Shown piece by piece: positions 3,608 to 36,268 of a DNA stretch of 36,268 nucleotides. Origin of the DNA: a virus; the IMG/VR virus record IMGVR_UViG_3300042543_000115, positions 1-36,268 of that record; one strand, written 5' to 3'. A program made the position numbers and the translations under genes. The first letter of the stretch is position 1; every line of letters starts with the position of its first letter. Under the pieces are notes generated by a model that did not search any database, was not told where the DNA came from, and worked only from the letters and a program-made list of their open reading frames with translations.

Positions 3608-3899
3608 CGGCCTCCTCCTTGGGCGTCACGTCGTAGAGCGTCCACAACACGCGGGCGAGATCCTTGCCGGCCTGCTCGATCACGCCTTCGTCGGCCTGCG
3701 GGAATATGGCGTGCAACAATTCGTGGATCAGCACCGTCAGCCGATGCTTGCCGCGCATCCCGTCGTGCAAGACGATCCGCGGGCTTTTCGACTTGCGGGT
3801 GTAGGTGATCCCGTACGCCTGGCCCTTGAGCTCGGCGAAGCGAATGAGCCACCGCTCGTCGCCGTTGAGCGTGAATACGTGGTCGCGCGGCACGGGCAT
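3600..3899 (-). CDS. Small HExxH zinc metallopeptidase-like protein
   Basis: A 99-residue protein with the zincin motif HELLHA at about 59-64, flanked by hydrophobic residues (RLTVLIHELLHAIFP), and a possible third metal ligand in the following DEGVIEQAG helix. The pattern resembles minimal SprT/WSS1-like or ImmA-like peptidases; the family cannot be decided by eye. If active, it would cleave peptide bonds using zinc. ATG at 3899 directly abuts AAAGGG, whereas GTG at 3893 lies 6 bases downstream of it, so the true start may be GTG, giving 97 residues. It is translationally linked to the 85-aa gene. Being in the late operon, a virion or host-takeover role are both possible. Confidence 0.65.
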   Translation of the reverse strand: MPVPRDHVFTLNGDERWLIRFAELKGQAYGITYTRKSKSPRIVLHDGMRGKHRLTVLIHELLHAIFPQADEGVIEQAGKDLARVLWTLYDVTPKEEADG

Positions 3900-4968: not shown

Positions 4969-5669
4969 GACGTTGTCGCCGTAGAGCACGTCGCGATAGT
5001 AAGTTCAATGTTGCTGGCCGTTCCGGCACCGAAGCCGCGGATCGACCTGCGGCCGAACACCACGGCAGTGTTAGTCACGGTCACGCTGGTGACTACGTCT
5101 TGCGTGGCAAACGGCAGCAACACGTTGCTGGCAGAATTATTACACAGCACGCCAACAGACACGCGCTGCAACGAAATTCCGGTTCCTGTAATGGTCGCCG
5201 CCGTGACAACCGGCACGGTCTGCACCTCCATCGTGAACGTGTTCGTGGAGTGCGACGCCAAGGCGATACCGGGCAGCGTCTGAAACTTGATGCCGCACTG
5301 CATAGTAGTTGTGGCGGCCGTAAAGAAGTCGCCACGGAACAACTGCGGCACCACCAGGAACCACGCCGTGCCGTCCTTGCCGATTGAGCAGTCACGCTCC
5401 TCCGGGGCGTCGTCATCCAGCGGCCAGAACAGATTAGTGGCGCTAACTGTGTTGGGCGTGTTTGTCTGGTTTTTGAACGTGACCGTCTTTGACGATCCGA
5501 GAGGCCAAGATCCAGTAAATGTGCAGACGCGAAACACGGGCCGCGTCCGCGACTGATGCACAGGGTCGAACGTCAGCGGCCGTGTCCGTCGCGGCTCCTG
5601 CTCAACGGCCCGCACAACGCGGGCCACGCGAGCGGCAGAGCCGAGGTCGAACTGCGCGAGTTCAGCCAT
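4965..5669 (-). CDS. Putative virion/tail protein (234 aa), family unknown
   Basis: The region after residue ~50 is rich in Thr, Val and Asn and predicts as beta strands (VTFKNQTNTPNTVSATNLF, TNTFTMEVQTVPVVTAATIT), like a tail-surface or Ig-like domain. The N-terminal ~45 residues are Arg-rich helix. It starts at ATG 5667-5669 behind GGTGACGC, four bases after the upstream stop, and its own stop overlaps the next start. It stands second downstream of the tape measure, consistent with the distal tail. No catalytic motif seen. Confidence 0.6.
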   Translation of the reverse strand: MAELAQFDLGSAARVARVVRAVEQEPRRTRPLTFDPVHQSRTRPVFRVCTFTGSWPLGSSKTVTFKNQTNTPNTVSATNLFWPLDDDAPEERDCSIGKDGTAWFLVVPQLFRGDFFTAATTTMQCGIKFQTLPGIALASHSTNTFTMEVQTVPVVTAATITGTGISLQRVSVGVLCNNSASNVLLPFATQDVVTSVTVTNTAVVFGRRSIRGFGAGTASNIELTIATCSTATTS

Positions 5670-5672
5670 GCG

Positions 5673-6572
5673 TCACCCCGTGGGCAGTGGGGTCGTGGGC
5701 GGCGTGCCGAACAGCGACTGGAAGTCCACCTCCGGGTTCACGCGACGCACGAGGATGGCCGGAGCGTTGAGCGTCATGCCGCCATTGCCGTCGAGCCCGA
5801 CCGGATTCGGCGAGGCGATCCATTCGGAGTTCTCAAAGTCGAACACCATCGCTCGGCGTTTCTGGTCGTCGCCGATGAAGTTCCAGCCAATGTCTGGCAG
5901 TTGGAGATTGTGGCCGCTCTGGCGGTAGTGCAACTCGGCCGTGGCCTTCCAGTAGGCGACCATTCCGCCGTTGAACTCCTCTTGCGTTTGCTGCACGCTG
6001 ATTTTGTCTACCTTGACCGAGTGAGTAGGACACCCGAAGTAGGGCGCATCATTCACGCACTGGCTTGCGGAGAACCAGTTGCTTGGAAACTGGGCGAAGT
6101 TGTACGTCACCCGAGCGACCGACAACGCCTCTTGTGTGACCAAGCCAGGGAAGTAGTCGAAAGCGCTGTTCGTCAGCGGTCGGAGCGTGCCGTTGCCGCT
6201 TCCTTCGTAATAGAACAACGCCGGCACTTCGCCCGGCGCGCCATCGAACTCCCATAGGCCGGGGCGGTCAGTAGGCTGCTGCAACTCCCACGCCATGACC
6301 ACGCCGTATTCGTAGAGAATGTGAACGTGGTACGGCGAACCCTCGAATCCCTCCGTAATCGTGGCCTTTCGGCACCTGTTGTAAGTGTAGAACGGGTGCG
6401 GAGAGTTCAGGTTGACGCCCGTGGCCGCGACTAGCTGGTTGTCGTCTATCGGGGCGGATGTCAAAGCGTCATCGCTCAACACGCAAACAAACTCTCGCGT
6501 CACTTGGCGCGGCTTGTTGATCTCAAAGACGCCCTTGCGCGGAAGTTCTTTTACGCTGACGACGCTAGCCAT
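5673..6572 (-). CDS. Putative distal-tail/baseplate protein (299 aa)
   Basis: First gene downstream of the tape measure, in the position of distal tail (Dit) or tip proteins. The sequence is aromatic- and Pro-rich with many beta-strand stretches (PHPFYTYNRCRKATITEGF, YHVHILYEYGVVMAWEL, VARVTYNFAQFPSNWF). I do not recognise a named family. It is followed closely by two further small virion-like genes. The product probably sits at the tail tip; this rests on gene order only. Confidence 0.6.
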   Translation of the reverse strand: MASVVSVKELPRKGVFEINKPRQVTREFVCVLSDDALTSAPIDDNQLVAATGVNLNSPHPFYTYNRCRKATITEGFEGSPYHVHILYEYGVVMAWELQQPTDRPGLWEFDGAPGEVPALFYYEGSGNGTLRPLTNSAFDYFPGLVTQEALSVARVTYNFAQFPSNWFSASQCVNDAPYFGCPTHSVKVDKISVQQTQEEFNGGMVAYWKATAELHYRQSGHNLQLPDIGWNFIGDDQKRRAMVFDFENSEWIASPNPVGLDGNGGMTLNAPAILVRRVNPEVDFQSLFGTPPTTPLPTG

Positions 6573-12790: not shown

Positions 12791-12987
12791 CGGCGGCGTC
12801 TCCGTTTGGGCGTGGCGTCTGCCGTCTCGACTTCGGGATCGACAGCTGCCGTTTCGATGAACTCGGCCTGGCGGTCTTCGACGGCAACCTTGCGGGCGAC
12901 GAGCTCGGCCGCGAGCCCGCCTGGAATCTCAACCACCTGCCCGATGCGATACGCACGCCACGACCTTACAAATCTCAGTTTCTTCAT
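12787..12987 (-). CDS. Small head-region protein (66 aa)
   Basis: Starts at ATG 12985-12987, overlapping the glycosyltransferase stop. Residues 1-35 (MKKLRFVRSWRAYRIGQVVE then IPGGLAAELVARKVA) form a short basic beta-hairpin/helix module seen as a small gene between capsid and connector genes in many HK97-like phages. The tail ends in five Arg. Function not known. Confidence 0.7.
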   Translation of the reverse strand: MKKLRFVRSWRAYRIGQVVEIPGGLAAELVARKVAVEDRQAEFIETAAVDPEVETADATPKRRRRR

Positions 12988-13718
12988 TCGGGCACACTCC
13001 ATGCAGTTTCCGGGCGTTTCATCGTGTTGGCGAACTCGGTGCTGTATTGGAAAACCGGCTTATCAAGCTTTTTGCCGGGCCACGTCACCATGTATTCCCC
13101 GTGGCCGAGAACGATGCGAGGCGAGACGTAGACGCGGTTTCCGGCCTTGCGGAAGCTTTTCCAAAATCCAATGTCGGAGTCAGTTCTGCCTTCACCGAAA
13201 CCGCCCTGCGGATCGGCTTGCTCCCAGAACCACGGCTTCGGCGTCCGCTTGAGGGCGGCCGTGCTGATGACCGTGCAGCCGAAGTGCGCCGTGTCCACCT
13301 CCTGCACGGGCTCGGCGAACCAGCTCATGGGCAGGCTGGTCTTGCCGTCCTCGGGCGGGTTGTCGAGCGTGCCCTTTAGCGTAAGCATCGGCCGCCCGTC
13401 CTCCCGTTTGGTTTGCAGCCCGGTGATGGCGTCGCACTGGAAGGTCATCGCTAATGCGAAGAGCTGCTCTACGTCCTCGCGGGTGAAGAACGTGTCGTAG
13501 TCGATGGTGAGCAGGTATTCGCACTTGTCGATAAACGTCTCAAAAACACGGGTCATGCACTGACCGTAGTAGGCCCCAGTGACCTTGGTGGGCCGGATGC
13601 CCAGCGGCATCAGCACCTGGGCCCAACTGTAGAAGTTGTCCATGAACCCGAGCCGAGGCACGCTCATGACGGCCTCCACCCGGATGTCGCAATCAGTGTT
13701 CCCGACTTTGACGATCAT
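12984..13718 (-). CDS. GT-A glycosyltransferase-like protein in the capsid cluster
   Basis: A 244-residue protein with a DxD-type nucleotide-sugar/metal motif, LLTIDYDTFF (D73-Y-D75), preceded by a Rossmann-like half and followed by TAHFGCTVISTAALKR and TDSDIGFWKSFRKAGNRVYV. The second stretch resembles the acceptor/catalytic region of family-2-like transferases (S-D-I/xxD-x-x-F/W). It lies directly downstream of the major capsid gene and upstream of connectors, where the order is normally uninterrupted, suggesting that it modifies the capsid or another virion protein. It could equally be a moron acting on the host surface. Confidence 0.7.
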   Translation of the reverse strand: MIVKVGNTDCDIRVEAVMSVPRLGFMDNFYSWAQVLMPLGIRPTKVTGAYYGQCMTRVFETFIDKCEYLLTIDYDTFFTREDVEQLFALAMTFQCDAITGLQTKREDGRPMLTLKGTLDNPPEDGKTSLPMSWFAEPVQEVDTAHFGCTVISTAALKRTPKPWFWEQADPQGGFGEGRTDSDIGFWKSFRKAGNRVYVSPRIVLGHGEYMVTWPGKKLDKPVFQYSTEFANTMKRPETAWSVPE

Positions 13719-15185: not shown

Positions 15186-15356
15186 CTACGGGCGTGGAGC
15201 CTTGCAGAAGCGGATTGCGGAAAGTGTTGTTTTCACAAACGCCACCGCACGCTGTCCGCACCGTGGGCAACGCAGATACCGCTGCCGCTCGTCGCCGCAC
15301 GCGCGGCTGCTGCGGGTCCGAAGACGTTCACCGCATGTGCAGCGTGGCTCAGACAT
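15186..15356 (-). CDS. Small zinc-ribbon protein (56 aa) between protease and capsid
   Basis: ATG 15354-15356 lies inside the last codons of the prohead protease gene (8-bp overlap) and reads to TAG at 15186-15188. The product begins MSEPRCTCGERLRTR and contains RCPRCGQRAV; its Cys at 6, 8, 20, 30, 33 and 51 suggest a zinc ribbon. No clear ribosome site, so coupling to the protease would be needed. It fills an otherwise unexplained 211-bp gap in a compact operon. Com/zinc-ribbon-like peptides occur in some phages; no role assigned. Confidence 0.5.
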   Translation of the reverse strand: MSEPRCTCGERLRTRSSRACGDERQRYLRCPRCGQRAVAFVKTTLSAIRFCKAPRP

Positions 15357-15993
15357 GCTTCAGCCGGAGAATGGCGGCCCAGGCGGCGGCGACGCCCCGC
15401 AGGGCCGAACGCGAGCAGTCCGCCTGGGCCGCAGGCTCGGGAGTGGCCTGCGATGAAAGCCACGCCTCGTAGGACCGCATGGCGACGCCGGCCGAGGTCT
15501 GCGGATACGCTGGCACCAGCACCGGGCCCACGTCGTACAGGCCAGACACCTCGCGGATTTGGCGAACTGCCTTGCCATCCTCGGCAGTGCGGAACGACTC
15601 GTTCTTCGGGTCCACCGTAAAAGCGAACGACGAGCCACGCACGTCACGCCGCTGGATGAGTTCCAGCACGTCGGCCCGGCTGACGGGCGGCGTCACGACG
15701 TACCGCAGCCCCTTCTCGTCAGACGAGAGCTCAAGCGTGCCAGACGAGGAACGGCCCAGGACGATGTTGCTGTCGTGGTTGAACAGGGCCACCACGTCGC
15801 TCTTGCCCCGCTGGCGGTTCAGGATCTTGTCGAAGGCACCCGGCAGAATCTCCTCGCGGAACCCGCCGAGGTCGAGGGAAAGCCGGTTGTAGACGGCGGC
15901 GTAGCCGATGATCGCGGCCCGGCCATCGGCCCGGCTCTCGACGATCAGCTCGTTCTCTTCCTCGAAGGCAAAGTCGCGGCGTTCAATTTCCAT
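15349..15993 (-). CDS. Prohead maturation protease (HK97 gp4 / U35 family)
   Basis: A 214-residue protein; ATG 15991-15993 follows AGGAGG at 8-base spacing. Family landmarks are GRAAIIGYAAVYNRLS, GFREEILPGAF, the His block VVALFNHDSN and the Ser block DVRGSSFAFTV. It is a serine protease of the herpesvirus-assemblin-like fold that cleaves the capsid delta domain and itself. The order portal-protease-capsid is canonical. Confidence 0.93.
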   Translation of the reverse strand: MEIERRDFAFEEENELIVESRADGRAAIIGYAAVYNRLSLDLGGFREEILPGAFDKILNRQRGKSDVVALFNHDSNIVLGRSSSGTLELSSDEKGLRYVVTPPVSRADVLELIQRRDVRGSSFAFTVDPKNESFRTAEDGKAVRQIREVSGLYDVGPVLVPAYPQTSAGVAMRSYEAWLSSQATPEPAAQADCSRSALRGVAAAWAAILRLKHV

Positions 15994-17272
15994 TGGTGCT
16001 GTCCTCCTCTTCGGCCTGGTCTTCTGTGTCGTCTTCCGGTGAATCCTCCACATCCGCGACGGGCGCGGGCATCGACTCCGGTGCCGGCTGCTCTTCGCCC
16101 ACCTTGTCGAGCGTGGTCATGTTCAGCTGCACGAAGTGCTTGTCGCCGTCAGGCCCAATGGGATTGAGGTTCTCGAGCTCGCGGATCTCGTTGATCGTCA
16201 TCCAGCCGTTCTGGAGCGCTGAAACGTAGTAGGCCGACCGGCTGGCGTGGTCGCCACGCAGCAGGCCGCTCACGCTGTGCTCGGCGAAGTAGGTCTCGTC
16301 GTCCACGATCAGGTCGCGGCTGATCGCGGCTTCCCACCGCTTCAGATGCGGCAGCAGGCAGTGCTGCACGAACTCCGTGCCCTGAACTTCGATGTTTGAG
16401 TAAGTCGAGCGGGTGAGATCCTGAATCATGTGCGGAGGCACGCGGAACGCCCGGCAGATCTCAATCACTTGGTACTGCCGCGTCTCAAGGAACTGGGCCG
16501 CTTCGTTGCTGCCGCTGAGCTCGTGGGCCTTCACGCCGTTGGGCAGCACCGCCGTGCGAAACGCCCGGTCGCTGCCCCGGTGCATCCGCTCCCACTGCTC
16601 CCGCAGCCGCTCGGCAGCCTCGGCCGGGATCGGGTTGTCTGACTCCAGCACGATGCCGGGCCGGGCACCGTTGCCGAAGTATGTGCTGCCGTGGGCTTCA
16701 AGAGCCTGGGCCAGGCCAATGGCGTTCTGAAAAATCTTGTACGTCGGGATCGGCCGCACGCCGTCCTCGGTCGTGAACCGCAGGGCGAAGATCTGCTCCT
16801 GCGAATACACGGTCTGCCGGCCGTTGGGCTCGCGGTACAGATACCGCAGCGTGCCGTTCTCAAGCCGCTCGCACTCCATGCGGGAACTGTGCAGCGGCCA
16901 CAGCTCCGAGATCGCACCTCGAGCACCAGGTCGGATCTCGGCGTAGCTCGCACCGTAGTGGAGGTACATGCCGGTCATCCAATCCCGGAACTCCTGCGCC
17001 GTCTGCCACGGGTTCGGCTGCATGTGCAGGAGCCGGTACACCGGATGCGTAGCGGCCTTGGCCTTGCCGCCGTTGGCCAGCCGCTCGTAGACGTGGAGCG
17101 GCAACGACGAGACGGCGTCAGAGATGACCCGGATGCAGGCCGTGTAGGCCGAGCAGGCCATCGAATTGTCTGCGGTGACGCGGATGCCAGAAGGCGTCCG
17201 GTTGCTGCTCACCTCGGACCAGTCAATGCCGCGGAGCTCGAGCATCCGGTGATCGGCGAGAAGGTCACTCAT
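15983..17272 (-). CDS. Portal protein (HK97 family)
   Basis: A 429-residue protein with CSAYTACIRVISDAVSSLPL, HPVYRLLHMQPNPWQTAQEF, a wing/stem region (EICRAFRVPPHMIQDLTRST) and PHLKRWEAAISRDL, all typical of HK97-type portals. The last ~45 residues are an acidic tail (DVEDSPEDDTEDQAEEED). The dodecameric portal is the DNA entry channel and terminase dock. Start overlaps the large-terminase stop (ATGA). Confidence 0.95.
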   Translation of the reverse strand: MSDLLADHRMLELRGIDWSEVSSNRTPSGIRVTADNSMACSAYTACIRVISDAVSSLPLHVYERLANGGKAKAATHPVYRLLHMQPNPWQTAQEFRDWMTGMYLHYGASYAEIRPGARGAISELWPLHSSRMECERLENGTLRYLYREPNGRQTVYSQEQIFALRFTTEDGVRPIPTYKIFQNAIGLAQALEAHGSTYFGNGARPGIVLESDNPIPAEAAERLREQWERMHRGSDRAFRTAVLPNGVKAHELSGSNEAAQFLETRQYQVIEICRAFRVPPHMIQDLTRSTYSNIEVQGTEFVQHCLLPHLKRWEAAISRDLIVDDETYFAEHSVSGLLRGDHASRSAYYVSALQNGWMTINEIRELENLNPIGPDGDKHFVQLNMTTLDKVGEEQPAPESMPAPVADVEDSPEDDTEDQAEEEDSTNGN

Positions 17273-18831
17273 AGCGTGATGATGTCCCAGGATTGCTCAG
17301 GCGGCGGGGCGGTTGCCGTCGCGTGGATGCCGAGGGCCATCGTCAACGCCACGATGCCGTCGATGCGTTCGTTGCTCTTCGCCTTGCTGGGCTTGATGTT
17401 TCCGGCGTGATCCTGCTGGATTGCCACGTTCGACGCCTGCCACGCCAAGACGGGATGCCCGCCGTGGTGCAGTCGCCCCGCTACGCAGGCCGCCTCAAGG
17501 GCCTTCGCTGCGGAACTCATCGAGCCGTAACCTTGCCCAAAGCCTAAGACGTTGACCCCATCGCCTTGCAGTTGCGTGGCCAGCTGGGTCGCGTTCCAGC
17601 GGTCAATCGCCACCTGCCGGATGTTGTATTTCTTGGTCAGAGCCATGATGTCAGCCCGCACCTGGTCGAAGTCCGTGACGTTGCCGTGCGTCAGGTGCAG
17701 CTTTCCTTCCTTCGCCCACTGGTCGTACGGCACGCGGTCCCGCTTTACCCGCTCCCGCATGTTCTCCTCTGGGATCCAGAAGTGCGGCTCCACCCAGAAG
17801 GTGCCGTCGTCCAACTGGAACAGCAGGCAGAAGCAGGTGGTATCAAACGTGCTGGCGAGATCGAGGCCCGCGAAACACTCCCGGCCGTCGAGCATGACCG
17901 GGCACGGCTTGTTGCCCTGTGCCCAGTGCTCCATTCGCAGCCAGCGAGTATCCTGCTCGGTCCACTGGTTCAGGTGCAGCCGCCGGAAGGTGTTCTCTTC
18001 GCTCGGCATGTCCTGGGCACGCTTGCACCGCACCCGCAGGTCGTCGAGTTTCACGCTCACGCCGAGGTTCGGGTTTGCCTTCCGCCAGGTCTCTTCCTTC
18101 GTCCAGTCGTCTTCGGGATCGGCGGCGTAGATCGCAGGCAGGAACGTCTCGTCTTTGATCGCCCCGTCTCGCACGGCCAGGGCGTAACGCCAGATTTCCC
18201 AGCAGATGCTCTTGCGGTCGAAGCCCGCCGTGGTGATCGCCACGCACAACGGCTGCCGCCTGGCCCCGGTGCTCGTGGTCATCACGTCCCACAGTTCCCG
18301 GTCGGGCTGGGCGTGCAGCTCGTCGAAGATGATGCCGTGAGCGTTCAGCCCGTGCTTGGTGAACGCCTCGGCCGACAGTGCCTTGTAGGTGCTGTGCGTG
18401 TCCTCCCGCACGATGGAATTGCGAAACACCCGCAGGCGGCTCCGCAACTTCGGCGAGTTCTCCACGCAGACCTTCGCCATCTCGAAGACGAGCCGGGCCT
18501 GGTCGCGATCAGCGGCGCACGAGTAGATCTCGGCCCCCGGCTCGCCGTCAAACATCAACTTCAGTGCGATCCCCGCACACAGTGTGCTCTTGCCGTTCTT
18601 GCGGGGGATCGCCAGCAGGCTCGTGCGATACTGCCGCACCTCGCCTTTCATTGTGCCGAAGAGACGGCCGACGTAGTCCTTCTGCCACGGCTCGAGCAGG
18701 AACGCTTTGCCGCCGAGCTCTCCCTTCGCGTGCGTCAGGTTCTCCTCAAAGAACCGCACTGCGATTTCCGCAGCCTTCGCATCAAGCGAACATGCGGGCG
18801 TCGTCTTCGTTTTCTTGCGGGCCTTGGTCAA
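17269..18831 (-). CDS. terL: Terminase large subunit
   Basis: A 520-residue protein with Walker A at about 94-101 (IPRKNGKST), Walker B GIIFDELH, the coupling region AITTAGFDRKSICWEI, and RNase-H-like nuclease acidic residues in CFAGLDLASTFDTT and further on (NERIDGIVALTMAL). It is the ATP-driven motor and nuclease that packages DNA (Terminase_1/HK97-like type). Start is taken as TTG at 18829-18831 behind GAGGG with 9-base spacing, overlapping the small subunit by 50 bp; no ATG is available before conserved sequence. Confidence 0.95.
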   Translation of the reverse strand: MTKARKKTKTTPACSLDAKAAEIAVRFFEENLTHAKGELGGKAFLLEPWQKDYVGRLFGTMKGEVRQYRTSLLAIPRKNGKSTLCAGIALKLMFDGEPGAEIYSCAADRDQARLVFEMAKVCVENSPKLRSRLRVFRNSIVREDTHSTYKALSAEAFTKHGLNAHGIIFDELHAQPDRELWDVMTTSTGARRQPLCVAITTAGFDRKSICWEIWRYALAVRDGAIKDETFLPAIYAADPEDDWTKEETWRKANPNLGVSVKLDDLRVRCKRAQDMPSEENTFRRLHLNQWTEQDTRWLRMEHWAQGNKPCPVMLDGRECFAGLDLASTFDTTCFCLLFQLDDGTFWVEPHFWIPEENMRERVKRDRVPYDQWAKEGKLHLTHGNVTDFDQVRADIMALTKKYNIRQVAIDRWNATQLATQLQGDGVNVLGFGQGYGSMSSAAKALEAACVAGRLHHGGHPVLAWQASNVAIQQDHAGNIKPSKAKSNERIDGIVALTMALGIHATATAPPPEQSWDIITL

Positions 18832-21421: not shown

Positions 21422-21709
21422 TCACAACCCCTTGGCGACGAGGTAGCCGACCACCGCCTGCTGCACGGCGGCGAACGCCGCCTGCTCCACGGGGTCGCTG
21501 ATCTCTGTCTCGCTGCCCCGCAGCACTGTCACGGCAGCCGAGTCGAGCGTCGATACTGTGCCGTCGTCCGCGACGCGGGACGGCACGCATCGCAGGGCAA
21601 ACGAGATCGGCTGCGAGCCGTCGGCTTTGAGCGTCTGCGAGATGGCGAGCGAAATCTGCCACACCGGGTAGGTCTGGCCGTTGATGGTCACGGGCGTGGT
21701 GGCGTTCAT
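21422..21709 (-). CDS. Small virion-associated protein (95 aa)
   Basis: ATG 21707-21709 is preceded by AGGAG with good spacing; longer starts lie in the fibre gene. The sequence NATTPVTINGQTYPVWQISL is strand-rich, ending in a helix (VEQAAFAAVQQAVVGYLVAK). Its place between two fibre-like genes suggests a fibre chaperone or connector. No named family recognised. Confidence 0.6.
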   Translation of the reverse strand: MNATTPVTINGQTYPVWQISLAISQTLKADGSQPISFALRCVPSRVADDGTVSTLDSAAVTVLRGSETEISDPVEQAAFAAVQQAVVGYLVAKGL

Positions 21710-21717
21710 GCGTGCTC

Positions 21718-23265
21718 CTACGAATACGAGGCTGTGAGTCGGTCGTCCCATTTGACGCTTGTGGCCGTCGCCGTCGTCACCGTACCAGCGGCGGCAACGG
21801 TGGTTCGGCGGATCGTCCACACGCTCGCGCTCGTCGCGCTGCCAGACAGGGCGCGGCCGATGTACGACACGCCCGACACGGTGTCGCTGCGGACGGCGTA
21901 GGCCACGGCACTCGCCGACAGGATGCCGTCGCCGTCAATGGAGAGCCCTGTGCCGACGCGGACGCCGCCGATCACGCTGCTGGATGCCGTGACGGGTGCG
22001 AAGGTAGACGGGACGTTCGTGAGCGATGTGTAGTCCCCGTCGAACAACGACGGCTGGTCGTCTAGGTCGTCGTACGAGTTGGAGGTCGCCACCGTCGCCA
22101 GCCCGGTGACGTTCGCGGCGTCAACGCCTCCAGTCCATGCCGTTGTCTGTTGGCTGTCGTCGGCAAACTTGATACCGGCGAGCGTGAGATCGCCGAGGCC
22201 GCCGCCGCTCTGCTCAACGCGGAGCCTGTTGGCCGAACTCTGGATAAACGCCGATTCATCGCTCGCGCGGACGCCAACAACAAGCGTGTCCAGAATCGTC
22301 TGGTCGCTGTAGGCAGAAATTTGCAGAAACGGATCAATTGCAAATGGGTCGATTTGTAGGCCGATGAGGCTGTCACCTATATCTGCGACAATGCTTCCGC
22401 CGTCGCCCAGCGTCAGGCCAGCGAACGTCGGCGAGTCGGTTTTGTTCAGTGATTGGTCGTAACTGCTGCCACCGCCACCCGACACCGAGATCACGCCGTT
22501 GCCGTCGATGCTGACGCCGTTACCGATTCGCACCGCGCCTCGCGTGTTCGCCGACGCCAGTGGCAGGCGATCCGCCCCGAGCGTCCCGGCGTTGATCGCG
22601 GAGGCGTCGTGGTTGTGCGACGACGCGGCCTTGCCGTCGAGGGCGGTCTGCAGTCCCGTGACGCTGGCGATGGCCACGGTGCCAGCGGTCCACTCGCTGC
22701 CGCTCCAAGCGACGACCTGGCCCGTCGTGCCGGTGCCGAACGAGTTGCGGGCCCGAGCGTTCGTGAAATACAGGTTGCTAGAACCCTCTGGCACCGCGTC
22801 CGTATTGGCCGGCGGCGTGCTGATCTCGAAGTACGCCGAACCGCTCCAGCGGTAGATGCGACCCGTGTTCAGGGCGACGTAGATTTTGCCCGACTCGCCC
22901 GTCACCGGCAGCGATGCGACGTTCGCGAACTCGAGCACGTCGTCAACATAGCTCGGCAACTGGGCCGACGGCACCGTGCCGCCGACGAGCGTTGCGTATG
23001 TGCCCGGCGTCACCCGCAGGCTGCCACTCGACACCGACAGGCCCTCGCCCAGCGAGATGCCAATGTCGGCCGCGGAAGCCGTGCCCGTGTTCGTGATGGG
23101 CGCGGTCACGTTGACCACGCCAGACGGGCCCTGTGCTCCTGTAGCCCCAAAACCGGCTGTGACGGTAGCCGACGACGTATTGCCGCCAGCGACCGACGCC
23201 TTCACGGTCTGGTCGTTCACCGTAGCCGTGACGCTCTGCTTCGATGTCGAGACGCTGATGCCCAT
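21718..23265 (-). CDS. Tail fibre protein
   Basis: A 515-residue Ser/Thr/Gly/Val-rich protein. A short collagen-like stretch (TGAQGPSG) lies near residue 45. The module DDVLEFANVASLPVTGESGK followed by IYRWSGSAYFEI, a common tail-fibre unit, lies at about 108-150. Two related segments, GAVRIGNGVSIDGNGVISVS and GGVRVGTGLSIDGDGILSAS, are internal repeats. It probably forms a trimeric fibre for host recognition. Start overlaps the previous stop. Confidence 0.8.
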   Translation of the reverse strand: MGISVSTSKQSVTATVNDQTVKASVAGGNTSSATVTAGFGATGAQGPSGVVNVTAPITNTGTASAADIGISLGEGLSVSSGSLRVTPGTYATLVGGTVPSAQLPSYVDDVLEFANVASLPVTGESGKIYVALNTGRIYRWSGSAYFEISTPPANTDAVPEGSSNLYFTNARARNSFGTGTTGQVVAWSGSEWTAGTVAIASVTGLQTALDGKAASSHNHDASAINAGTLGADRLPLASANTRGAVRIGNGVSIDGNGVISVSGGGGSSYDQSLNKTDSPTFAGLTLGDGGSIVADIGDSLIGLQIDPFAIDPFLQISAYSDQTILDTLVVGVRASDESAFIQSSANRLRVEQSGGGLGDLTLAGIKFADDSQQTTAWTGGVDAANVTGLATVATSNSYDDLDDQPSLFDGDYTSLTNVPSTFAPVTASSSVIGGVRVGTGLSIDGDGILSASAVAYAVRSDTVSGVSYIGRALSGSATSASVWTIRRTTVAAAGTVTTATATSVKWDDRLTASYS

Positions 23266-23585
23266 CAGCCGCTCACTTCCACATAGCCGTCGAGGTACGT
23301 TCGCACGGCCGTGCCGTCCGTCGCCTTGAGGTTCCAGCGATACGTTCCGGCCGCCAGCGCGAGAGTCGCTTCCTTGCTGAGCGAAATGGTGACCTGTCCC
23401 GCCGACGCGCTGGCAAACGACACCGTGATCGGTGCCACGGTCAGCCCGCTGACAGACGAAACCAGCGTGGCCGATACGGTCTGGCCCGTGAACGACACCG
23501 GGTCGAAGTCGATCAGCGTGGAGACGAAATCACCGCGCCTGAACGCCAGCCCCAGCGTGCCTGGCAGTTGCTCATACGTCGCCAT
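23265..23585 (-). CDS. Small beta-sandwich-like structural protein (106 aa)
   Basis: The sequence (LGLAFRRGDFVSTLIDFDPV, TVSATLVSSVSGLTVAPITV, QVTISLSKEATLALAAGTYR, WNLKATDGTAVRTYLDGYVE) resembles the BppU-like N-terminal or Ig-like domains found before receptor-binding proteins. It overlaps both neighbours by one base (TGATG), so it is made with the fibre protein. Likely fibre attachment or baseplate upper protein. Confidence 0.65.
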   Translation of the reverse strand: MATYEQLPGTLGLAFRRGDFVSTLIDFDPVSFTGQTVSATLVSSVSGLTVAPITVSFASASAGQVTISLSKEATLALAAGTYRWNLKATDGTAVRTYLDGYVEVSG

Positions 23586-23833
23586 CAGTTCGCTCCATCG
23601 GGTTCTTTGGGTGATCGTGGTTGGAGGGCATAGAGCAGGCGGGTCTGCTCGCTAATCGCCGCACTGATTTCCTTTTGCGTGGCCGCAACGTCCCGTAGGA
23701 ACTCTCGGTGTGCCTCGACCATCGGCAGAATTACGTCTTGCCTGCCGACCCAGAGCAGCGCAATCGCCAGCACGGTTGCGAATCCATAGTCGCGGAGCAC
23801 CGACAGCAGCGTGTCTTTTGTCTCGGTGGTCAC
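23585..23833 (-). CDS. Holin-like single-pass membrane protein (82 aa)
   Basis: A GTG start overlaps the previous stop. One transmembrane segment near the N terminus (YGFATVLAIALLWVG, about 15-30) is followed by an amphipathic coiled-coil tail (HREFLRDVAATQKEISAAIS) and a Pro/Lys-rich end. This layout matches one-TM holins, or the membrane anchor of an inner-membrane spanin. It lies in a cluster of membrane proteins around the papain-like peptidase, which points to lysis. Confidence 0.6.
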   Translation of the reverse strand: MTTETKDTLLSVLRDYGFATVLAIALLWVGRQDVILPMVEAHREFLRDVAATQKEISAAISEQTRLLYALQPRSPKEPDGAN

Positions 23834-24189
23834 GTCGTCAGCTCCGCTTTCATGGCCAGGAGCAGCACGCGATTCGCCCGGCGCTCAAGCCACCACCGCA
23901 GCAGCACTTGTACCACGGCACTCGCGACCGCTTGCAGGATGAACGCCCACACAACCCCGTACTCTGCCGGGTCTTTCCCGCTCACGACTTGGTGGCTGCG
24001 TCGCATGTTGTCGAGGATCACGCCGCACACCATGCGGCGGTCGTTGTCGTTCTGGCAGTAGTTCAGAAAGGCCCCGGCCCAGTTCTCGATCGCGAGCACG
24101 ACCAGGTCGTCAACCACGGCACGGCCGACGAGGTGCTTCCGCACGCCGAGGCGACGCCAGACGTAGCCCTTCGTTTGCGCGAGCGTCAT
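23830..24189 (-). CDS. Membrane protein with C-terminal TM segment (119 aa)
   Basis: ATG 24187-24189 overlaps the lipoprotein gene stop (ATGA). A soluble N-terminal domain (about 1-80, with VDDLVVLAIENWAGAFLNYC) precedes a hydrophobic segment VVWAFILQAVASAVVQVLL at about 85-103, followed by a basic WWLERR end. No family recognised. It could be part of the lysis cassette, for example a holin partner or antiholin. Confidence 0.6.
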   Translation of the reverse strand: MTLAQTKGYVWRRLGVRKHLVGRAVVDDLVVLAIENWAGAFLNYCQNDNDRRMVCGVILDNMRRSHQVVSGKDPAEYGVVWAFILQAVASAVVQVLLRWWLERRANRVLLLAMKAELTT

Positions 24190-24449
24190 CGCACCTTCCC
24201 GGTGCCGCCGCACGCGCCACATGGAACGACGACGCGGCCATCCGTTGGCAGCTTGCCCGTGCCGTTGCACGGTTCGCACTTGTCCCCCGGCTTCGGGGCC
24301 GGGGCCGGCGGCTGCTCGCGACGCAGGGCCATCACCGCACGAGCCGTCTCGGCGGCCAGGTCGGCAGAGATCGTCGGGTCGTTCGGGATGCTGGCGACGC
24401 AGCCCACGAGCGTCAGGGCCAACAGCACCAGCCAGCGCCACGGCGTCAC
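24186..24449 (-). CDS. Lipoprotein with two DnaJ-type CxxCxGxG motifs
   Basis: The GTG start overlaps the stop of the peptidase gene (GTGA). Residues 1-17 form a lipoprotein signal (WRWLVLLALTLVGC, lipobox LVG|C17). After a Pro-rich linker come CEPCNGTG (C58, C61) and CGACGGTG (C77, C80), two zinc-binding motifs of the DnaJ cysteine-rich type. The 87-residue length and coupling to a putative lytic enzyme fit an outer-membrane spanin-like (Rz1-type) lipoprotein, but the zinc motifs are unusual for that role. Confidence 0.65.
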   Translation of the reverse strand: MTPWRWLVLLALTLVGCVASIPNDPTISADLAAETARAVMALRREQPPAPAPKPGDKCEPCNGTGKLPTDGRVVVPCGACGGTGKVR

Positions 24450-25372
24450 AGCGTGCCTCCAGTCCAGTCGGGCAGCTGCGTCGGCTGGAAGCCGCTGTAG
24501 CCGGCGTAGACGTAGGAGTCGCGGCCTGAGAGCATCCGCGTGCATACATCGGCGTCGATCCAGAACGAGCAGTTGCGGACGACGACGGGCATCGTCTCGG
24601 GGTAGTGCTTGCCGACGGTGTTGGAGTCGCCCCATGAGTTGAAACAGAGCAGCCCAGGTCGCTTGCCCCAGCGCACAGCCGCCAGAACCATCGCGTGCCA
24701 CCAAACCCCACCAGGGCGACAGAATCCCATGTCGTCCCGTGACATGGAAAAGCCTTGGCCACTGCAGACCACGCACGCAAAACCGTTCTGGATAGCTGCG
24801 GCGGCCTGCTCAAAATCCACAACGAGCGTCGTCTCGCTGCACCGCCGCAGCTTGGCAAACGGCTCGAGCTCGTCGGGCACGCCCATTCGGCCCCAGGTGC
24901 GGTCGCGCTGGGCCTTGTCGGCCTCCGCGATCACCACGCCGCCGTAGTCGATGCCGTAGTGCAGGGCACCAAAGTCGCGGATCGACTTCGCAGCGTGGAA
25001 CCCCGTCGAGCCGTCGCCGCCATTGTTGACCTTCTGCCCGCGGGCCTCGACCCGGCTGAACCCGTACAGGCTCGACTCGATTGTCCGGGCCCGCATGACC
25101 TCGGGCTCCTTGCGGTACACCACGTCGCACGCTGCCACGAGATCCACGGCCAGGCTCGCGCCCCACCCGACGCACGAACCAACGTTGCCCTGCGAGCCAC
25201 GACGCCAGCCAGGTAAACACTCCAGCAGGGCCGGGTACAGCATGACCTCGCGCTTCTCGTCAGCCCGGAATCCCGGTGCCGCGGTAGCCAGCGTGGGATG
25301 CGGCAAGGTGGAGACGAACGCCTCGGCCCCAGCGGGATCGGGTTCGTAGCCAAAGGCATGAGGCTCGGCCAT
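24446..25372 (-). CDS. Papain-like (C1) cysteine peptidase
   Basis: A 308-residue protein with all papain-family catalytic sites: oxyanion Q61 and nucleophile C67 in SQGNVGSCVGWGA, H226 in WWHAMVLAAV and N245 in CFNSWGD. The spacing C-160-H-19-N is normal for C1 enzymes. No signal peptide and no evident pro-domain. ATG 25370-25372 follows GAGGTG closely. It heads a run of coupled membrane/lipoprotein genes, and no peptidoglycan hydrolase is visible elsewhere, so it may be the lytic enzyme or a virion-associated protease attacking a proteinaceous envelope (inference). Host-takeover proteolysis is an alternative. Confidence 0.8.
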   Translation of the reverse strand: MAEPHAFGYEPDPAGAEAFVSTLPHPTLATAAPGFRADEKREVMLYPALLECLPGWRRGSQGNVGSCVGWGASLAVDLVAACDVVYRKEPEVMRARTIESSLYGFSRVEARGQKVNNGGDGSTGFHAAKSIRDFGALHYGIDYGGVVIAEADKAQRDRTWGRMGVPDELEPFAKLRRCSETTLVVDFEQAAAAIQNGFACVVCSGQGFSMSRDDMGFCRPGGVWWHAMVLAAVRWGKRPGLLCFNSWGDSNTVGKHYPETMPVVVRNCSFWIDADVCTRMLSGRDSYVYAGYSGFQPTQLPDWTGGTL

Positions 25373-25375
25373 GCG

Positions 25376-25978
25376 TCACCTCGTGCCGGCCCAGGCGATG
25401 GCTCTGGCCACCTCGGCGTAGCGGGCCCGCACGTCGGCTGTGACGGGCACGGCGTCCAGGCCGAGGGCGTACTTCATCGACGCCTCGACAGCCTCCTTGA
25501 GCCCAGCTACGGCCCCTGGGGCGTGCCCGCCGATCCGACGCCAAGCGATGTCGAGCGTCGTGACGGTGAACGCCCGCAGTGCCGGCGTGTCGGTGAACAC
25601 CGCCACGCTTGTGGCACCCTCGGCCTCGACCACTAGGGCGGCCTTCGCCCAGGTCGCCGCCCACAGGGCCCGGTCTGCCGGCGAGAGTGTGCCGAGGGCG
25701 GTGGCGATGGGCCCGACGCTGTCCCGCAGCTGCTTGCTGGGCTCGGGCACCGTGACGCTCGGCACTGACACTGGGCTGAACGACGGCATTGGCAACTTGC
25801 CCCACGCTGCGGCCACGATCAGGCCGGCTGCGGCGATTCGCCCGAGGGTGGCGCGGTGCTGGCCGGCGGCTGCGGCGGCCTGAGCGAGCCAGCCAGCGAT
25901 CCGCTCCCAGTAGGGTGCGGCCAGCAAAGCAGCCGCCGCCACCACGGCGGCAAGGCGAATGAGGCTTTCATCGTTCAT
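25376..25978 (-). CDS. Two-transmembrane protein (200 aa)
   Basis: Starts at ATG 25976-25978, overlapping the previous stop by one base. Hydrophobic segments lie at about 8-24 (LAAVVAAAALLAAPYW) and 47-62 (AAAGLIVAAAWG), followed by a Pro/Ser/Val linker and a soluble Ala-rich helical domain. It directly precedes the papain-like peptidase gene with a 3-bp gap. Possible membrane component of the lysis cassette; family unknown. Confidence 0.65.
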   Translation of the reverse strand: MNDESLIRLAAVVAAAALLAAPYWERIAGWLAQAAAAAGQHRATLGRIAAAGLIVAAAWGKLPMPSFSPVSVPSVTVPEPSKQLRDSVGPIATALGTLSPADRALWAATWAKAALVVEAEGATSVAVFTDTPALRAFTVTTLDIAWRRIGGHAPGAVAGLKEAVEASMKYALGLDAVPVTADVRARYAEVARAIAWAGTR

Positions 25979-26277
25979 CACGCAACGCCCGCTTGTAGAA
26001 GGCAAAACCGGATGAGCTGCTCGCCCTCCTTCGTCTTGGCCACGTCGGCCAGGAGCCGCACGAGCTGGTCGTCAGTCGTGGCGTCCGTCTTCGACGCCAG
26101 CCACTCGCAGGCTTCGCTCACGATCAGGCTCTTTGCATACGGGTCAACCGTCTGCACGAACCGCTGGCCGTAGGCAATCAGCGGCGACCACGTTTGCAGG
26201 AGCTTGATCGCCTGCCAGATGTTGAGCGTGTTGCCGTACTGGGCCTGCTCTTGGGCCGTCATTTCGAACTGTGGCAT
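25978..26277 (-). CDS. Small helical protein (99 aa), unknown
   Basis: The protein (MPQFEMTAQEQAQYGNTLNI then AYGQRFVQTVDPYAKSLIVS) is predicted all-helical without TM segments or catalytic motifs. It is coupled to the downstream membrane protein (TGATG overlap). AGGAGG precedes the start. No family recognised. Confidence 0.6.
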   Translation of the reverse strand: MPQFEMTAQEQAQYGNTLNIWQAIKLLQTWSPLIAYGQRFVQTVDPYAKSLIVSEACEWLASKTDATTDDQLVRLLADVAKTKEGEQLIRFCLLQAGVA

Positions 26278-26288
26278 GGCGTGTCCTC

Positions 26289-26546
26289 CTAGTCCGATTC
26301 TGGCGCGTCCTCGTCCCCCTCTTGCAGCGTGCCGTTCACGGCGTCCGTCATGTGCTGCCAGATCCAGTCGTAGAGATCCTTGGCCTCCTCACGAACTTCG
26401 CTGATGTCCAGCACATACGGCTGCTGCCAGGATTCCTCGTTGTCGCCCACGATCTTGCCGTCGCCGCTGGTCATATAGGCGTAGATGTACCGCCGCCCGT
26501 ACTCGATCACGAGGCGACGCTCGACGTAGTCTCGCGGCGATTTCAC
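26289..26546 (-). CDS. Small acidic protein (85 aa), unknown
   Basis: A GTG start overlaps the stop of the HTH gene (GTGA); a second GTG codon lies directly upstream in frame. The sequence has VIEYGRRYIYAYMTSGDGKI and an acidic C terminus (LQEGDEDAPESD). Not recognised. Position and coupling are the evidence that it is real. Confidence 0.6.
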   Translation of the reverse strand: MKSPRDYVERRLVIEYGRRYIYAYMTSGDGKIVGDNEESWQQPYVLDISEVREEAKDLYDWIWQHMTDAVNGTLQEGDEDAPESD

Positions 26547-26905
26547 CACTGCACCTCGCGGTTCAAGTCGTCCACGAATCCGCGCACGTCGTCGGGAACC
26601 TTGAGCGGGCCGACGATGAACGACCGAGTTTTGGTGACACGCCGTTCCTCCCGCGTGCGGTCGTCCCAAGTCGCCTGGATGGCCAGGCACGCCTGCTGAA
26701 TCTCGGTCGTCGTCGGGTCGCGCTGACGCACGGGCTTTGCCCGCAGCTTCCGGTCGTGCCGGCGCGGCAGATGCCACACTTCGGCGAGGCGAATGACCTG
26801 GTCGCGGGTGATCGTCCACCGCTCGCACAATGCCCGCATGGGCATGTGCGTGCTCCAGTCCACGCGAAAGGCCGCCACGCTAATCGTTGCGGTGTTGCCC
26901 GCCAT
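26543..26905 (-). CDS. HTH protein (120 aa), GcrA-like or terminase-like helix
   Basis: Residues about 14-50 (VDWSTHMPMRALCERWTITR then DQVIRLAEVWHLPRRHDRKL) fit a helix-turn-helix of the GcrA/small-regulator kind, followed by a basic linker. The C-terminal half is helical with RRVTKTRSFIVGPLKVPDDV. GGAGG lies 6 bases before ATG. A transcription regulator of late or middle genes is possible; partner unknown. Confidence 0.55.
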   Translation of the reverse strand: MAGNTATISVAAFRVDWSTHMPMRALCERWTITRDQVIRLAEVWHLPRRHDRKLRAKPVRQRDPTTTEIQQACLAIQATWDDRTREERRVTKTRSFIVGPLKVPDDVRGFVDDLNREVQW

Positions 26906-27779
26906 CGTCGGCCTCCGGCAGCCAGTGCATCACCATCCGCATGGCCGGGTCGAGGTACAGTCGCTGCCCCGTCGCCTTCGCCATCGTGACGTGGAACGGC
27001 ACATGCTCGCAGTCGCTGCCGTCGTATGTGCCTTTCAGGTAAGCGTGCGTGTCGTAGATCGCCATGCCGCCAAACGCAGACACGACAGGCACGGGCGGCG
27101 AGCCCACCATCGGCAGCCAGGAGTGCTTCCAGCCGCCTTGCCCGGCGGTGTAGTCATCCCACGCCGAGTTCAGCCGCAGGGCCCAGGCGTCGTAGTGCAG
27201 CCAGCCGGGCGCGACTTTGGGCGTGTTGTTCTCGCCCATAGTCACATGAGTGTGTTCGAGCAGCGACACGCTGGCCATGCCACAGGCATCGGGGGTCAAC
27301 TGCAACGCACCGACGCCGTGCATCACACCGGCGTGGCTCCAACCGCCCCAAGCGTCGAAGTCGATCACGACGACGAAGTCCGCGTACCGGGCGTGTTCCT
27401 GCACCCATCGCTGGCACGCCGTGCGGTACTCGGCCAGCGCCTGCGTGCGACGGCCGGCGAACTCGGCACCGTACTGAGCACGCCCAAGTCGCTGGCTTGT
27501 GAACGTCGCCTGCCGGTAAGCCGCACAGAAGTCGAGCAGCGCCTGATCGGTGTCGTCTGTGTTGTCGTTTGTCTCGACGTGCAGCTGCCACTGGCCGCAG
27601 TTCTGCACGAGCCCTAGCAGTCTGCCGAGATTGGCCTCGAGGTGCTGGGCGCAGTTGCGGGCCAGGCCCACAAACGCCACGCTGGCGTCGGACCACACCT
27701 GCTCGCCGATGTCGTGCAGGATCTTGAAGTCGTCCGCGAAGTAGTCGATCGGATAGATCAGGTGGTCAGGGACTTTCAT
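26880..27779 (-). CDS. Glycosyltransferase-like protein (GT-A, DxD)
   Basis: A 299-residue protein with ASVAFVGLARNCAQHLEANL then WQLHVETNDNTDDTDQALLD, a GT-A Rossmann beginning, and FVVVIDFDAWGG (D140-F-D142) as the metal/nucleotide-sugar site. ATG 27777-27779 follows GGGAG. It overlaps the FkbM-type methyltransferase by 14 bp, so the two probably act on the same glycan. Sugar donor and acceptor unknown: either host surface glycan (superinfection control) or a virion glycoprotein. Confidence 0.7.
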   Translation of the reverse strand: MKVPDHLIYPIDYFADDFKILHDIGEQVWSDASVAFVGLARNCAQHLEANLGRLLGLVQNCGQWQLHVETNDNTDDTDQALLDFCAAYRQATFTSQRLGRAQYGAEFAGRRTQALAEYRTACQRWVQEHARYADFVVVIDFDAWGGWSHAGVMHGVGALQLTPDACGMASVSLLEHTHVTMGENNTPKVAPGWLHYDAWALRLNSAWDDYTAGQGGWKHSWLPMVGSPPVPVVSAFGGMAIYDTHAYLKGTYDGSDCEHVPFHVTMAKATGQRLYLDPAMRMVMHWLPEADDGGQHRND

Positions 27780-28371
27780 TGGTTGCTCCCGGCCTGCCAA
27801 TCGCCCAGCAGTGGCCTGGGTGTGCTGTCGCATGCGGATGCCGCACCAACTCCACCGATTTGCCAAGCCGCCGTAGCTGCTCGCTGACAGCGGCAAAAGT
27901 GTCATGGCACTCGACCACGAACGTGGCCCGGCTCCAGGTCGTCGCCGGCGCTGCTGACAAGACCACGGCCTCGGCACCCTCGATGTCGATCTTCACGAAG
28001 TCCGCGCCGCCTGGGCACAGGTCGTCAAGCGTGAACGCATTGACGATCACACGCTCTTGAACCGGCGCGGACCCGCAGTCGCTCGCTCCGATTGGGTGCG
28101 CCTGCAAGAGCGACGATTGCTCCGACGACGGACGCTGGTACAGCCTGGCCGCTCCGTGGTAGTCGCACGCCGCTCCGTGGATGGCGACGACGTTGCCCGG
28201 CAGGCGGCCGCGCAGCACGGCGTACGCACGCTCGTCGGCCTCGACCGCCGTGACCGACGCGAACTCGGCCGCCAGCATGTGCGTCCATTGGCCGACGTTC
28301 GCGCCAACGTCCAGGGCGTGACCCCTGGCGACGCCGTCCAGCGAGTGCAGCAGGCAGTCTTCGACGTTCAC
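27766..28371 (-). CDS. FkbM-family SAM methyltransferase
   Basis: The 201-residue protein has the SAM motif I HALDVGANVGQWT (about 19-31), acidic motif TAVEADERAY, and DFVKIDIEGAEAVVL (124-138), the FkbM signature. Start is GTG 28369-28371 overlapping the RusA stop (GTGA). FkbM-type enzymes O-methylate sugars or polyketides, and are common in glycan clusters. Beside a glycosyltransferase, methylation of a surface or virion glycan is the likeliest role. Confidence 0.85.
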   Translation of the reverse strand: MNVEDCLLHSLDGVARGHALDVGANVGQWTHMLAAEFASVTAVEADERAYAVLRGRLPGNVVAIHGAACDYHGAARLYQRPSSEQSSLLQAHPIGASDCGSAPVQERVIVNAFTLDDLCPGGADFVKIDIEGAEAVVLSAAPATTWSRATFVVECHDTFAAVSEQLRRLGKSVELVRHPHATAHPGHCWAIGRPGATNESP

Positions 28372-28769
28372 GTTATTCGCACGGTCGTGCGCCCATCGGT
28401 GCCGTAGGTCTTCCCGACCACCAGCCGCGTGACCTGCGAGTCGTCTTCCCACGCCACGCCGTTCAGTGCATCCAGCACGGCCTTCGCGCAGTTGTCGAGG
28501 TCAATTCGTGGCGTCTTGGGTGCGTCCGGTTTCACGCCCGACTTCCGCATGTGCGACTTTGGGCGGGCGAACACAAGGTCGATCACCACGTCCACGGGCT
28601 CGCCGTGAACGCCGGCCCCGGCAGCTCGAGCAGCGGCGGCGACCGCCTGGCGGTACGCATGCACCGGATGCTGTGCCGGAACGTACGCCCGCGCAAACCC
28701 GCCCGCAGTCGAGACTCGTGGCCGTGGCTGCGGCACGGGGTCGCCTGGCACGCTGAACGTGATCGCCAT
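28368..28769 (-). CDS. rusA: Holliday-junction resolvase, RusA family
   Basis: The 133-residue protein begins ITFSVPGDPVPQPRPRVSTA and has the conserved core PRIDLDNCAKAVLDALNGVA then WEDDSQVTRLVVGKTYG, with the catalytic Asp residues of RusA. It cuts Holliday junctions made during recombination, probably together with the RecT protein in replication and packaging. Normal length. Confidence 0.93.
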   Translation of the reverse strand: MAITFSVPGDPVPQPRPRVSTAGGFARAYVPAQHPVHAYRQAVAAAARAAGAGVHGEPVDVVIDLVFARPKSHMRKSGVKPDAPKTPRIDLDNCAKAVLDALNGVAWEDDSQVTRLVVGKTYGTDGRTTVRIT

Positions 28770-33147: not shown

Positions 33148-33449
33148 CACGCACACCTCCACACCCGCTCCGGCCGCCCACTCGCGCTCGGCCTGGTCGT
33201 GCCCGTCGTCTCCACTCTGCCGGCCCGTGCAAGCCCGTGCATCCGCCGCGCCACCTGTTGCTCTGATAATCCGCAGCGGCTGGCGATCTCGTCCTTGGTG
33301 CCAGGCCCAGCCGCCAGCGCCTCGAGGATTCGCCGCTCGTGGTCGCCCAGGAACTCGCGGGCCGCGTCGCCCGCGATCTTCGACGTGACCGGATCGGTGC
33401 GGCGAAAGAGCGGGAGGTGCTCAACGCTCGCGGAAAAGTAGTCGCTCAT
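33147..33449 (-). CDS. Winged-helix regulator (100 aa)
   Basis: ATG 33447-33449 overlaps the sigma-like gene stop. Residues about 35-90 (HERRILEALAAGPGTKDEIA, SRCGLSEQQVARRMHGLARA, GRVETTGTTRPSASGRPERV) form a MarR/ArsR-like winged helix ending in a W-x-x. The N terminus (LPLFRRTDPVTSKIAGD) is the same segment that precedes wHTH domains in many phage proteins. Likely DNA-binding; target unknown. Confidence 0.75.
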   Translation of the reverse strand: MSDYFSASVEHLPLFRRTDPVTSKIAGDAAREFLGDHERRILEALAAGPGTKDEIASRCGLSEQQVARRMHGLARAGRVETTGTTRPSASGRPERVWRCA

Positions 33450-34132
33450 GACCACCGCGCCTCCAAAAACTCACGGACGCTAGCCTTCTGTAGTTTTCGA
33501 ATGGCCTTCGCTTCTATCTGCCGAACTCTTTCTTTCGTCACTCTGAACGCTTTGCCCACCTCTTCCAGCGTGTATTGGTTGCCGTCGGCAAGCCCGTAGC
33601 GCATCGCTATGATTTCGCGTTCCCGATATGTGAGACACTGCATCGCCGCAGTAATGTCTTGCCGCACTTCGTCTGCCTCTGACGGCAAGCATGGGTGCGA
33701 TGCAAGCCGCATCCTTTCGGCTGTAGCGATTGCGTAACGCTCCATCGCGTCAGCCCGCACGGCGGCCGTGTGTTCGTAAACCTTCGGTGCCTGCAAGAAC
33801 GCAACGCTGGCGCGCAACTCCTGCGGGAAAAGTTGCTCCATCGTCTTGCCGGTTAATTCAATGAGCTGGCTTTCGAGTGTCGCCAGCCGCTCCGCAGGCC
33901 ATCCTTTTGTTGGCTTGTCAGGAGGGCATGACCGCAAATTCAGCCAAAGCCCAATCTCTGAAGGAGTCACGCCAAGATGCCGCGCAAGTCCAGATTGCCC
34001 GCCGTAACGTCCGTGGCAAAACTTTTTGCACGCATGCCACAGCTCTGCGTGCTTGAGCCGAGTGACAGCAGTCACGTCCACCGCTCGGCTATCGTCTTGC
34101 GATTGTTCCGGCACTGACATCGCGGCGATCAT
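33446..34132 (-). CDS. XRE-type HTH fused to sigma-70 region 4 (regulator)
   Basis: A 228-residue protein. Residues ~44-66 (GQSGLARHLGVTPSEIGLWL) form a Cro/CI-type HTH. Residues ~165-216 (LTYREREIIAMRYGLADGNQ, TLEEVGKAFRVTKERVRQIE, KAIRKLQKA) are a complete sigma-70 region 4, the part that reads -35 boxes and binds the beta flap. No region 2 is seen, so it cannot open promoters alone. ATG 34130-34132 sits at better spacing from AAAGGA than the in-frame GTG at 34135. A hairpin precedes it. Likely the phage's switch for middle/late genes. Confidence 0.75.
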   Translation of the reverse strand: MIAAMSVPEQSQDDSRAVDVTAVTRLKHAELWHACKKFCHGRYGGQSGLARHLGVTPSEIGLWLNLRSCPPDKPTKGWPAERLATLESQLIELTGKTMEQLFPQELRASVAFLQAPKVYEHTAAVRADAMERYAIATAERMRLASHPCLPSEADEVRQDITAAMQCLTYREREIIAMRYGLADGNQYTLEEVGKAFRVTKERVRQIEAKAIRKLQKASVREFLEARWS

Positions 34133-34153
34133 CACGCTTCCTTTCGTGTATTT

Positions 34154-36136: not shown

Positions 36137-36268
36137 AGACAGGCTTCATGCCGAACTTCTCGACGCACTTGCGGTATTCCACTCGGCCGCCGTGGGTGTC
36201 GGTCGTAAACGGCCAGCCCATTGAGTTGCCGTCGCGGTCGAAATCCTCGACCGAAACGTTGCCGCTGG
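36135..36268 (-). CDS. 3' part of the junction-spanning 63-aa gene (second copy)
   Basis: Same gene as at 1-185; here the window holds the 3' end including the TAA at 36135-36137, preceded by codons for KPV. The 5' 58 bases of the gene are found only at the left end of the window. Confidence 0.75.
   Translation of the reverse strand, partial: SGNVSVEDFDRDGNSMGWPFTTDTHGGRVEYRKCVEKFGMKPV
36142..36268. repeat. Right copy of 127-bp terminal direct repeat
   Basis: Identical to 1-127. Removing one copy gives the 36,141-bp circular map. Confidence 0.95.

Follow-up and report, generated by a model that had tools for sequence, protein, structure and literature searches.

A papain-like cysteine peptidase as candidate lytic enzyme in a conserved gene cassette of environmental tailed phages

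A 36,268-base virus record from a freshwater-type environmental phage (the window, meaning here the whole stretch of DNA that was analysed) carries a compact gene block in which a C1 (papain-like) cysteine peptidase is encoded among membrane and exported proteins. On balance, and with modest confidence, this block is read as a lysis module with the C1 peptidase as its sole lytic enzyme. The reading is drawn from the membrane partners of the peptidase, their universal linkage, the lack of any other recognised lysin in the window and in 30 related records, and the existence of membrane-anchored homologues. Such a module would belong to a tailed, probably temperate phage in which the papain-like peptidase replaces the endolysin; we infer lysis itself, the holin activity of g82, the substrate and every step in the timing.

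The phage and its cassette

The record has a direct terminal repeat of 127 bases at its ends (window positions 1-127 and 36142-36268) and is therefore probably a complete genome. Its GC content is approximately 0.64, and neither a tRNA nor a convincing tRNA-like attachment site was found in the window. Tailed-phage genes are represented by a large terminase, a head maturation protease (15349-16053; phrog_80, 1e-47), head-tail connectors, a tail tape measure protein and a tail assembly chaperone. An integrase (755-1657) and a RecT-like protein are also encoded, and these suggest that the phage is probably temperate. Elsewhere in the window, a small protein at 3600-3899 carries a HELLH zinc-metallopeptidase motif and shows weak similarity to DUF6782, M78 and SprT, and the C-terminus of a protein at 33446-34135 is of the sigma-70 region 4 type, with matches to RpoD-type models as low as about 1e-23. 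Two genes just upstream of the cassette encode a glycosyltransferase-like protein (26880-27785) and an FkbM-type methyltransferase (27766-28380; phrog_8156), and another glycosyltransferase-like protein (12984-13718) is encoded among the head genes; all three are possible surface-glycan modification genes.

The initial annotation had delimited a five-gene cassette at 23585-25978, and the genes were confirmed at exactly those coordinates on the minus strand (Table 1). Their starts and stops overlap or sit within a few bases of one another. Equally tight packing continues into g106 and the fibre gene, and packing alone therefore does not define a lysis unit. Dozens of contigs keep the reading frames, gene lengths, gene order and catalytic residues, which places the cassette genes far beyond chance.

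Table 1. Genes of the peptidase cassette and of the adjoining upstream block, in window coordinates.
Gene	Position	Strand	Description
g82	23585-23833	-	82 aa; holin-shaped, N-terminal TM segment followed by a charged helical tail
g117	23830-24189	-	119 aa; one-TM membrane protein, TM segment near residues 79-97
Lipoprotein	24186-24449	-	87 aa; lipobox LVGC; CxxCxG..CxxCxG zinc-type hairpin
C1 (papain-like) cysteine peptidase	24446-25372	-	308 aa; candidate lytic enzyme
g209	25376-25978	-	200 aa; N-terminal membrane segment(s) and all-helical C-terminal domain
g99	25978-26277	-	conserved protein with no TM segment, at the 5' end of the block; in nearly all window-type cassettes
g26289	26289-26546	-	small conserved block protein; present in many relatives
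HTH-like protein (g26600)	26543-26905	-	upstream of the cassette; possible regulator; HTH assigned by reading the sequence only

Small membrane proteins always adjoin the peptidase. The size of g82, its one TM segment and its charged tail fit a holin shape (alignment A4) with no family-profile match, and no holin-family match was obtained in Pfam or PHROG for any of the cassette membrane partners. The adjacent g117 is conserved in relatives. In g209 a hydrophobic segment lies near residues 5-23, the N-terminus being shorter, with a single segment, in three of the relatives in alignment A3 (L034, L036 and L043), and the structural model places five helices in residues 82-199. A lysozyme hidden in g209, within the cassette the likeliest place for one, was considered and rejected: the domain is predicted to be all-helical and has no PDB fold match. 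No spanin match with a useful score was obtained for g209, which is membrane-anchored with a predicted helical outer domain.

The Cys residues of the lipoprotein are invariant in alignment A6, and the protein has weak similarity to DnaJ_CXXCXGXG and Anti-TRAP. Its lipobox is present in the window-type lipoprotein and missing from the corresponding exported proteins of two variant cassettes (L343 and L349), a loss that speaks against a simple o-spanin (Rz1-type) role for the lipoprotein and weakens the idea of it as a spanin.

The peptidase and the search for peptidoglycan hydrolases

The active site of the peptidase is intact and strongly conserved. More specifically, Q61, C67, H226 and N245 occur at exactly the positions given in the initial annotation, and these four together with 107 other positions are invariant in an alignment of 45 near relatives. 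In a broader alignment of 246 distinct ORFs the columns of the catalytic Cys, His and Asn contain only C, H and N, respectively, wherever a residue is present, and in 236 of 236 cases a Gln is found 4-7 residues ahead of the catalytic Cys. The catalytic residues are kept even across divergent types that share only about 22-25% identity.

An AlphaFold2 model of the peptidase, built from 49 aligned relatives (mean pLDDT 76, pTM 0.83), has the predicted fold of a C1 peptidase. Its best PDB match is xylellain (3ois, E 1.5e-8), followed by cathepsins and papain relatives, and C1 peptidases stand on top of the 131 PDB matches at E<=0.001, with TM-scores of only 0.4-0.6. Fold neighbours in BFVD include Peptidase_C1 proteins of uncultured Caudovirales; other neighbours there, mostly with weak scores, are labelled phage "Lysin A", "endolysin", "N-acetylmuramidase fragment" and "peptidoglycan binding-like". 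Sequence searches of the peptidase against the PDB returned chance matches only, and no family-profile match was found in Pfam, PHROG or NCBIfam, with 0 of 12 members of alignment A1 matching. The missing C1 profile match reflects a limit of detection, such a match being no defining feature of the family, and the assignment rests on fold and active site. The window copy has no signal peptide or membrane anchor, and no wall-binding domain was recognised in it. In one related record (L423, 3300043774_000236) the peptidase seems to be divided between two frames, with matches at 16602-16757 and 16709-17581 of that record.

It had been proposed earlier that the genome holds no recognisable peptidoglycan hydrolase, and within the limits of profile searches this is true of the roughly 40 window proteins scanned, none of which matched such an enzyme in PHROGs or, for the larger unassigned proteins, in Pfam as well. 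The scan took in all but a handful of proteins: those identified by reading as portal, capsid, clamp-like, RusA-like and HNH-like, the one at 21422-21760 and very small ORFs. No known endolysin catalytic domain was matched in the peptidase or elsewhere in the window. Of 30 long related records, which are not certified complete, none contained Amidase_2, Phage_lysozyme, NLPC_P60, SLT or Amidase_3, and controls were positive for each of these; M15_4 was likewise found in 0 of 30, with a control in one genome only, and the search of these records for GH19 was uninterpretable, its control being silent. Profile absence may leave room for a lysin of unknown fold, for example among the unassigned proteins at 4327-4989, 4965-5669 and 5673-6572.

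Distribution, linkage and variants of the cassette

The peptidase is carried by hundreds of relatives of the phage. Scans of IMG/VR returned 47 loci at first, 112 relatives in a second round and 254 with a broader profile, and the set gathered comprises at least 248 distinct homologous ORFs, with IMG/VR as the source of nearly all. For g82, 346 relatives were found in IMG/VR, of which the best 80 were kept. No homologues of the peptidase, g82 or g209 were found in cultured phages (INPHARED, 50,697 records).

Gene order in the first 47 loci (HTH, g99, g209, C1, lipoprotein, g117, g82, terminase) is conserved as far as the contigs extend, except that in L017, L018 and L024 the HTH gene was undetected and g99 has diverged. 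In two of these, at L017:9078-9392 and L024:9087-9392, either another gene stands in for g99 or g99 itself has diverged strongly (about 20% identity), the rest of the cassette being kept; the L017 copy in the g99 position matches phrog_402 (2.5e-4). When loci were anchored on the HTH gene, with at least 4 kb of sequence downstream, the peptidase was found downstream in 62 of 62, and it is also present in all 30 long related records. A recognised endolysin occupied the peptidase slot in none of the loci found. Loci located from the neighbour genes lack a detected peptidase in 14 cases of 226, nine of them truncated by a contig end within or close to the cassette, and the other five with a displaced g82 (L136, L137, L138, L141 and L142). 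Loss of the peptidase in the latter five was rejected as an explanation: two longer records hold a divergent copy elsewhere, which has its own g209-like, zinc-hairpin and g117-like partners, and the other three are shorter fragments.

This constancy bears on the possibility that the block is a module for host takeover or superinfection exclusion, in which the protease would act at the membrane to degrade envelope or receptor proteins of the host and would not be a lysis enzyme. The membrane and periplasmic partners fit such a role, as does the integrase of the phage, given that lysogenic conversion modules often contain protease and membrane genes of this kind. However, such modules are usually accessory, whereas the peptidase block occurs in 62 of 62 loci and 30 of 30 records, and all these phages would be left without any recognised lysin. 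This explanation is therefore considered rather unlikely.

The large terminase subunits of cassette-bearing contigs score from 312 to 1113 bits against that of the window (self-score 1221), a range from which the cassette is judged to be common to phages with very different packaging genes and to travel separately from them. Three peptidase types occupy the same slot, type a being that of the window. The type b peptidase (L343, L325, L275 and L276) is divergent and about 333 aa long; in L343 the remaining cassette is standard. Type c was found at 85 loci and has an N-terminal membrane segment in 36 of the 36 proteins checked, an anchor which suggests that this peptidase acts at or beyond the inner membrane. 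Its partners are a g209-like protein (72/72), a one-TM protein (65/65), a small GlsB-like membrane protein (67/70), a two-TM protein (63 of 70 eligible loci) and an exported zinc-hairpin protein (56/61). At these 67 of 70 eligible loci the membrane-anchored peptidase is directly followed by the GlsB/Transgly_assoc-like gene (weak similarity, E 0.03; for example L349:7518-7772 and L353:4293-4526), whose product is a possible holin of the type c branch.

These neighbourhoods also weigh on a second alternative, that the peptidase belongs to the virion or acts in its maturation (for capsid, tail or fibre processing, or as an entry enzyme) and that the lysin is an unrecognised protein encoded elsewhere. 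Phage virions do carry envelope-cutting enzymes, several window proteins are without a family match, and the packing of the block extends into g106 and the fibre gene. Yet the cassette stays together while the fibre genes downstream vary, the immediate partners of the peptidase are membrane and exported proteins, one branch has a membrane-anchored peptidase, and the genome already possesses a head maturation protease; a virion or maturation role is thus quite unlikely.

The host was sought through related sequences in cellular genomes. Peptidase patterns revealed no prophage copy in 84,980 GTDB species genomes. A search of species genomes with g82 gave one match, on a 3.5-kb contig of an Alphaproteobacteria-labelled MAG (LLD_269) that holds two short phage contigs (L277 and L510) with different peptidase types; no further match was found among 385 genomes of the same class. 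Because only two short phage fragments are involved and the class yielded no other match, this is probable binning noise, and the match is not taken to indicate the host. Shine-Dalgarno-like motifs in 20 of 30 cases are uninformative on the host, the motif being lenient, no background having been determined and two of the coordinates not being start codons.

Proposed lysis and comparison with known systems

If the block is a lysis module, its proteins would be made late in infection, and the holin candidate g82, together with the membrane partners g117 and g209, would open the inner membrane or depolarise it. This would let the peptidase into the periplasm to cut envelope peptide bonds, its substrate being either the cross-linking peptides of peptidoglycan or proteins by which the envelope is held together, and the exported zinc-hairpin lipoprotein and g209 would assist on the outer face. 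Lysis with no dedicated enzyme, whether through one small lysis protein encoded by a single gene or through passive release, and with an unrelated role for the peptidase, is very improbable, for single-gene lysis is known in small phages whereas tailed dsDNA phages, to our knowledge, nearly always carry an endolysin, and the peptidase is strongly conserved with its catalytic residues kept.

The initial annotation had suggested a protease-based lysis cassette that works by proteolysis instead of peptidoglycan cleavage, in a host with a protein-rich wall. The protease in the endolysin slot is the best-supported part of that proposal; the two remaining parts are unsupported, since papain-fold enzymes commonly cut peptidoglycan peptides and the search of cellular genomes pointed to no host. 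Planctomycetes, the usual example of such a wall, have been shown to possess peptidoglycan (PMC4432640, PMC4432595), and the literature consulted on their phages and phage lysis gave nothing useful. Cutting of peptidoglycan cross-links is at least as likely as the reading that invokes a protein-rich wall, and a true C1 active site could cleave ordinary envelope proteins. It is unlikely that environmental tailed phages of a large group lyse their hosts through a stand-alone C1 (cathepsin-type) protease cutting envelope proteins and not peptidoglycan, with a membrane-anchored (SAR-like) variant, and we know of no precedent for lysis by envelope-protein cleavage in bacterial dsDNA phages.

Were the peptidase confirmed as the lysin, a stand-alone C1-type enzyme would join the catalogue of phage lysis enzymes, and it would be explained how a large, apparently lysin-less phage group (at least 248 distinct peptidase ORFs) completes its cycle. 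The peptidase would also serve as a marker with which to annotate lysis modules in phages left blank by current family libraries, and would offer a handle on the host envelope as that which a cathepsin-type enzyme must cut to open it.

Among known enzymes, the C1A peptidases (xylellain, cathepsin B/L and papain) share with the window protein the same predicted fold, the arrangement and spacing of Gln, Cys, His and Asn, and an NSWG-type motif. The window protein differs in falling below detection by Pfam, PHROG and NCBIfam and in residing in phage cassettes, and the phage enzyme has a short N-terminal extension or a membrane anchor in place of the typical propeptide and secretion signal. CHAP and NlpC/P60 are papain-superfamily enzymes that cut peptidoglycan peptides and are common in phages (PMC10318531), and mycobacteriophage Lysin A contains an N5 domain of the papain family (PMC3314691). 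All of these belong to the same superfamily as the window enzyme and act, or are proposed to act, as lytic enzymes; however, CHAP, NlpC/P60 and N5 are shorter domains, those of Lysin A being mostly joined to other catalytic and wall-binding domains, whereas the window enzyme is stand-alone, of C1 type and with no recognised binding domain.

The type c peptidase resembles SAR endolysins such as P1 Lyz (PMC9025707; PMC9239132) in having an N-terminal membrane segment ahead of its catalytic domain. By contrast, the window protein is without an anchor or a signal-arrest-release segment at its N-terminus, and its predicted fold is that of a C1 peptidase. The pseudomurein endoisopeptidases PeiW and PeiP of methanogen (pro)phages lyse their hosts through cleavage of peptide links (PMC2989375, PMC4592898). 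Although these are other peptidases, with a pseudomurein substrate and archaeal hosts (a distinction made by description and not by sequence), the likeness lies in a virus-encoded peptidase that cuts the peptide links of a wall, a role shown for PeiW and PeiP and a candidate one for the enzyme described here.
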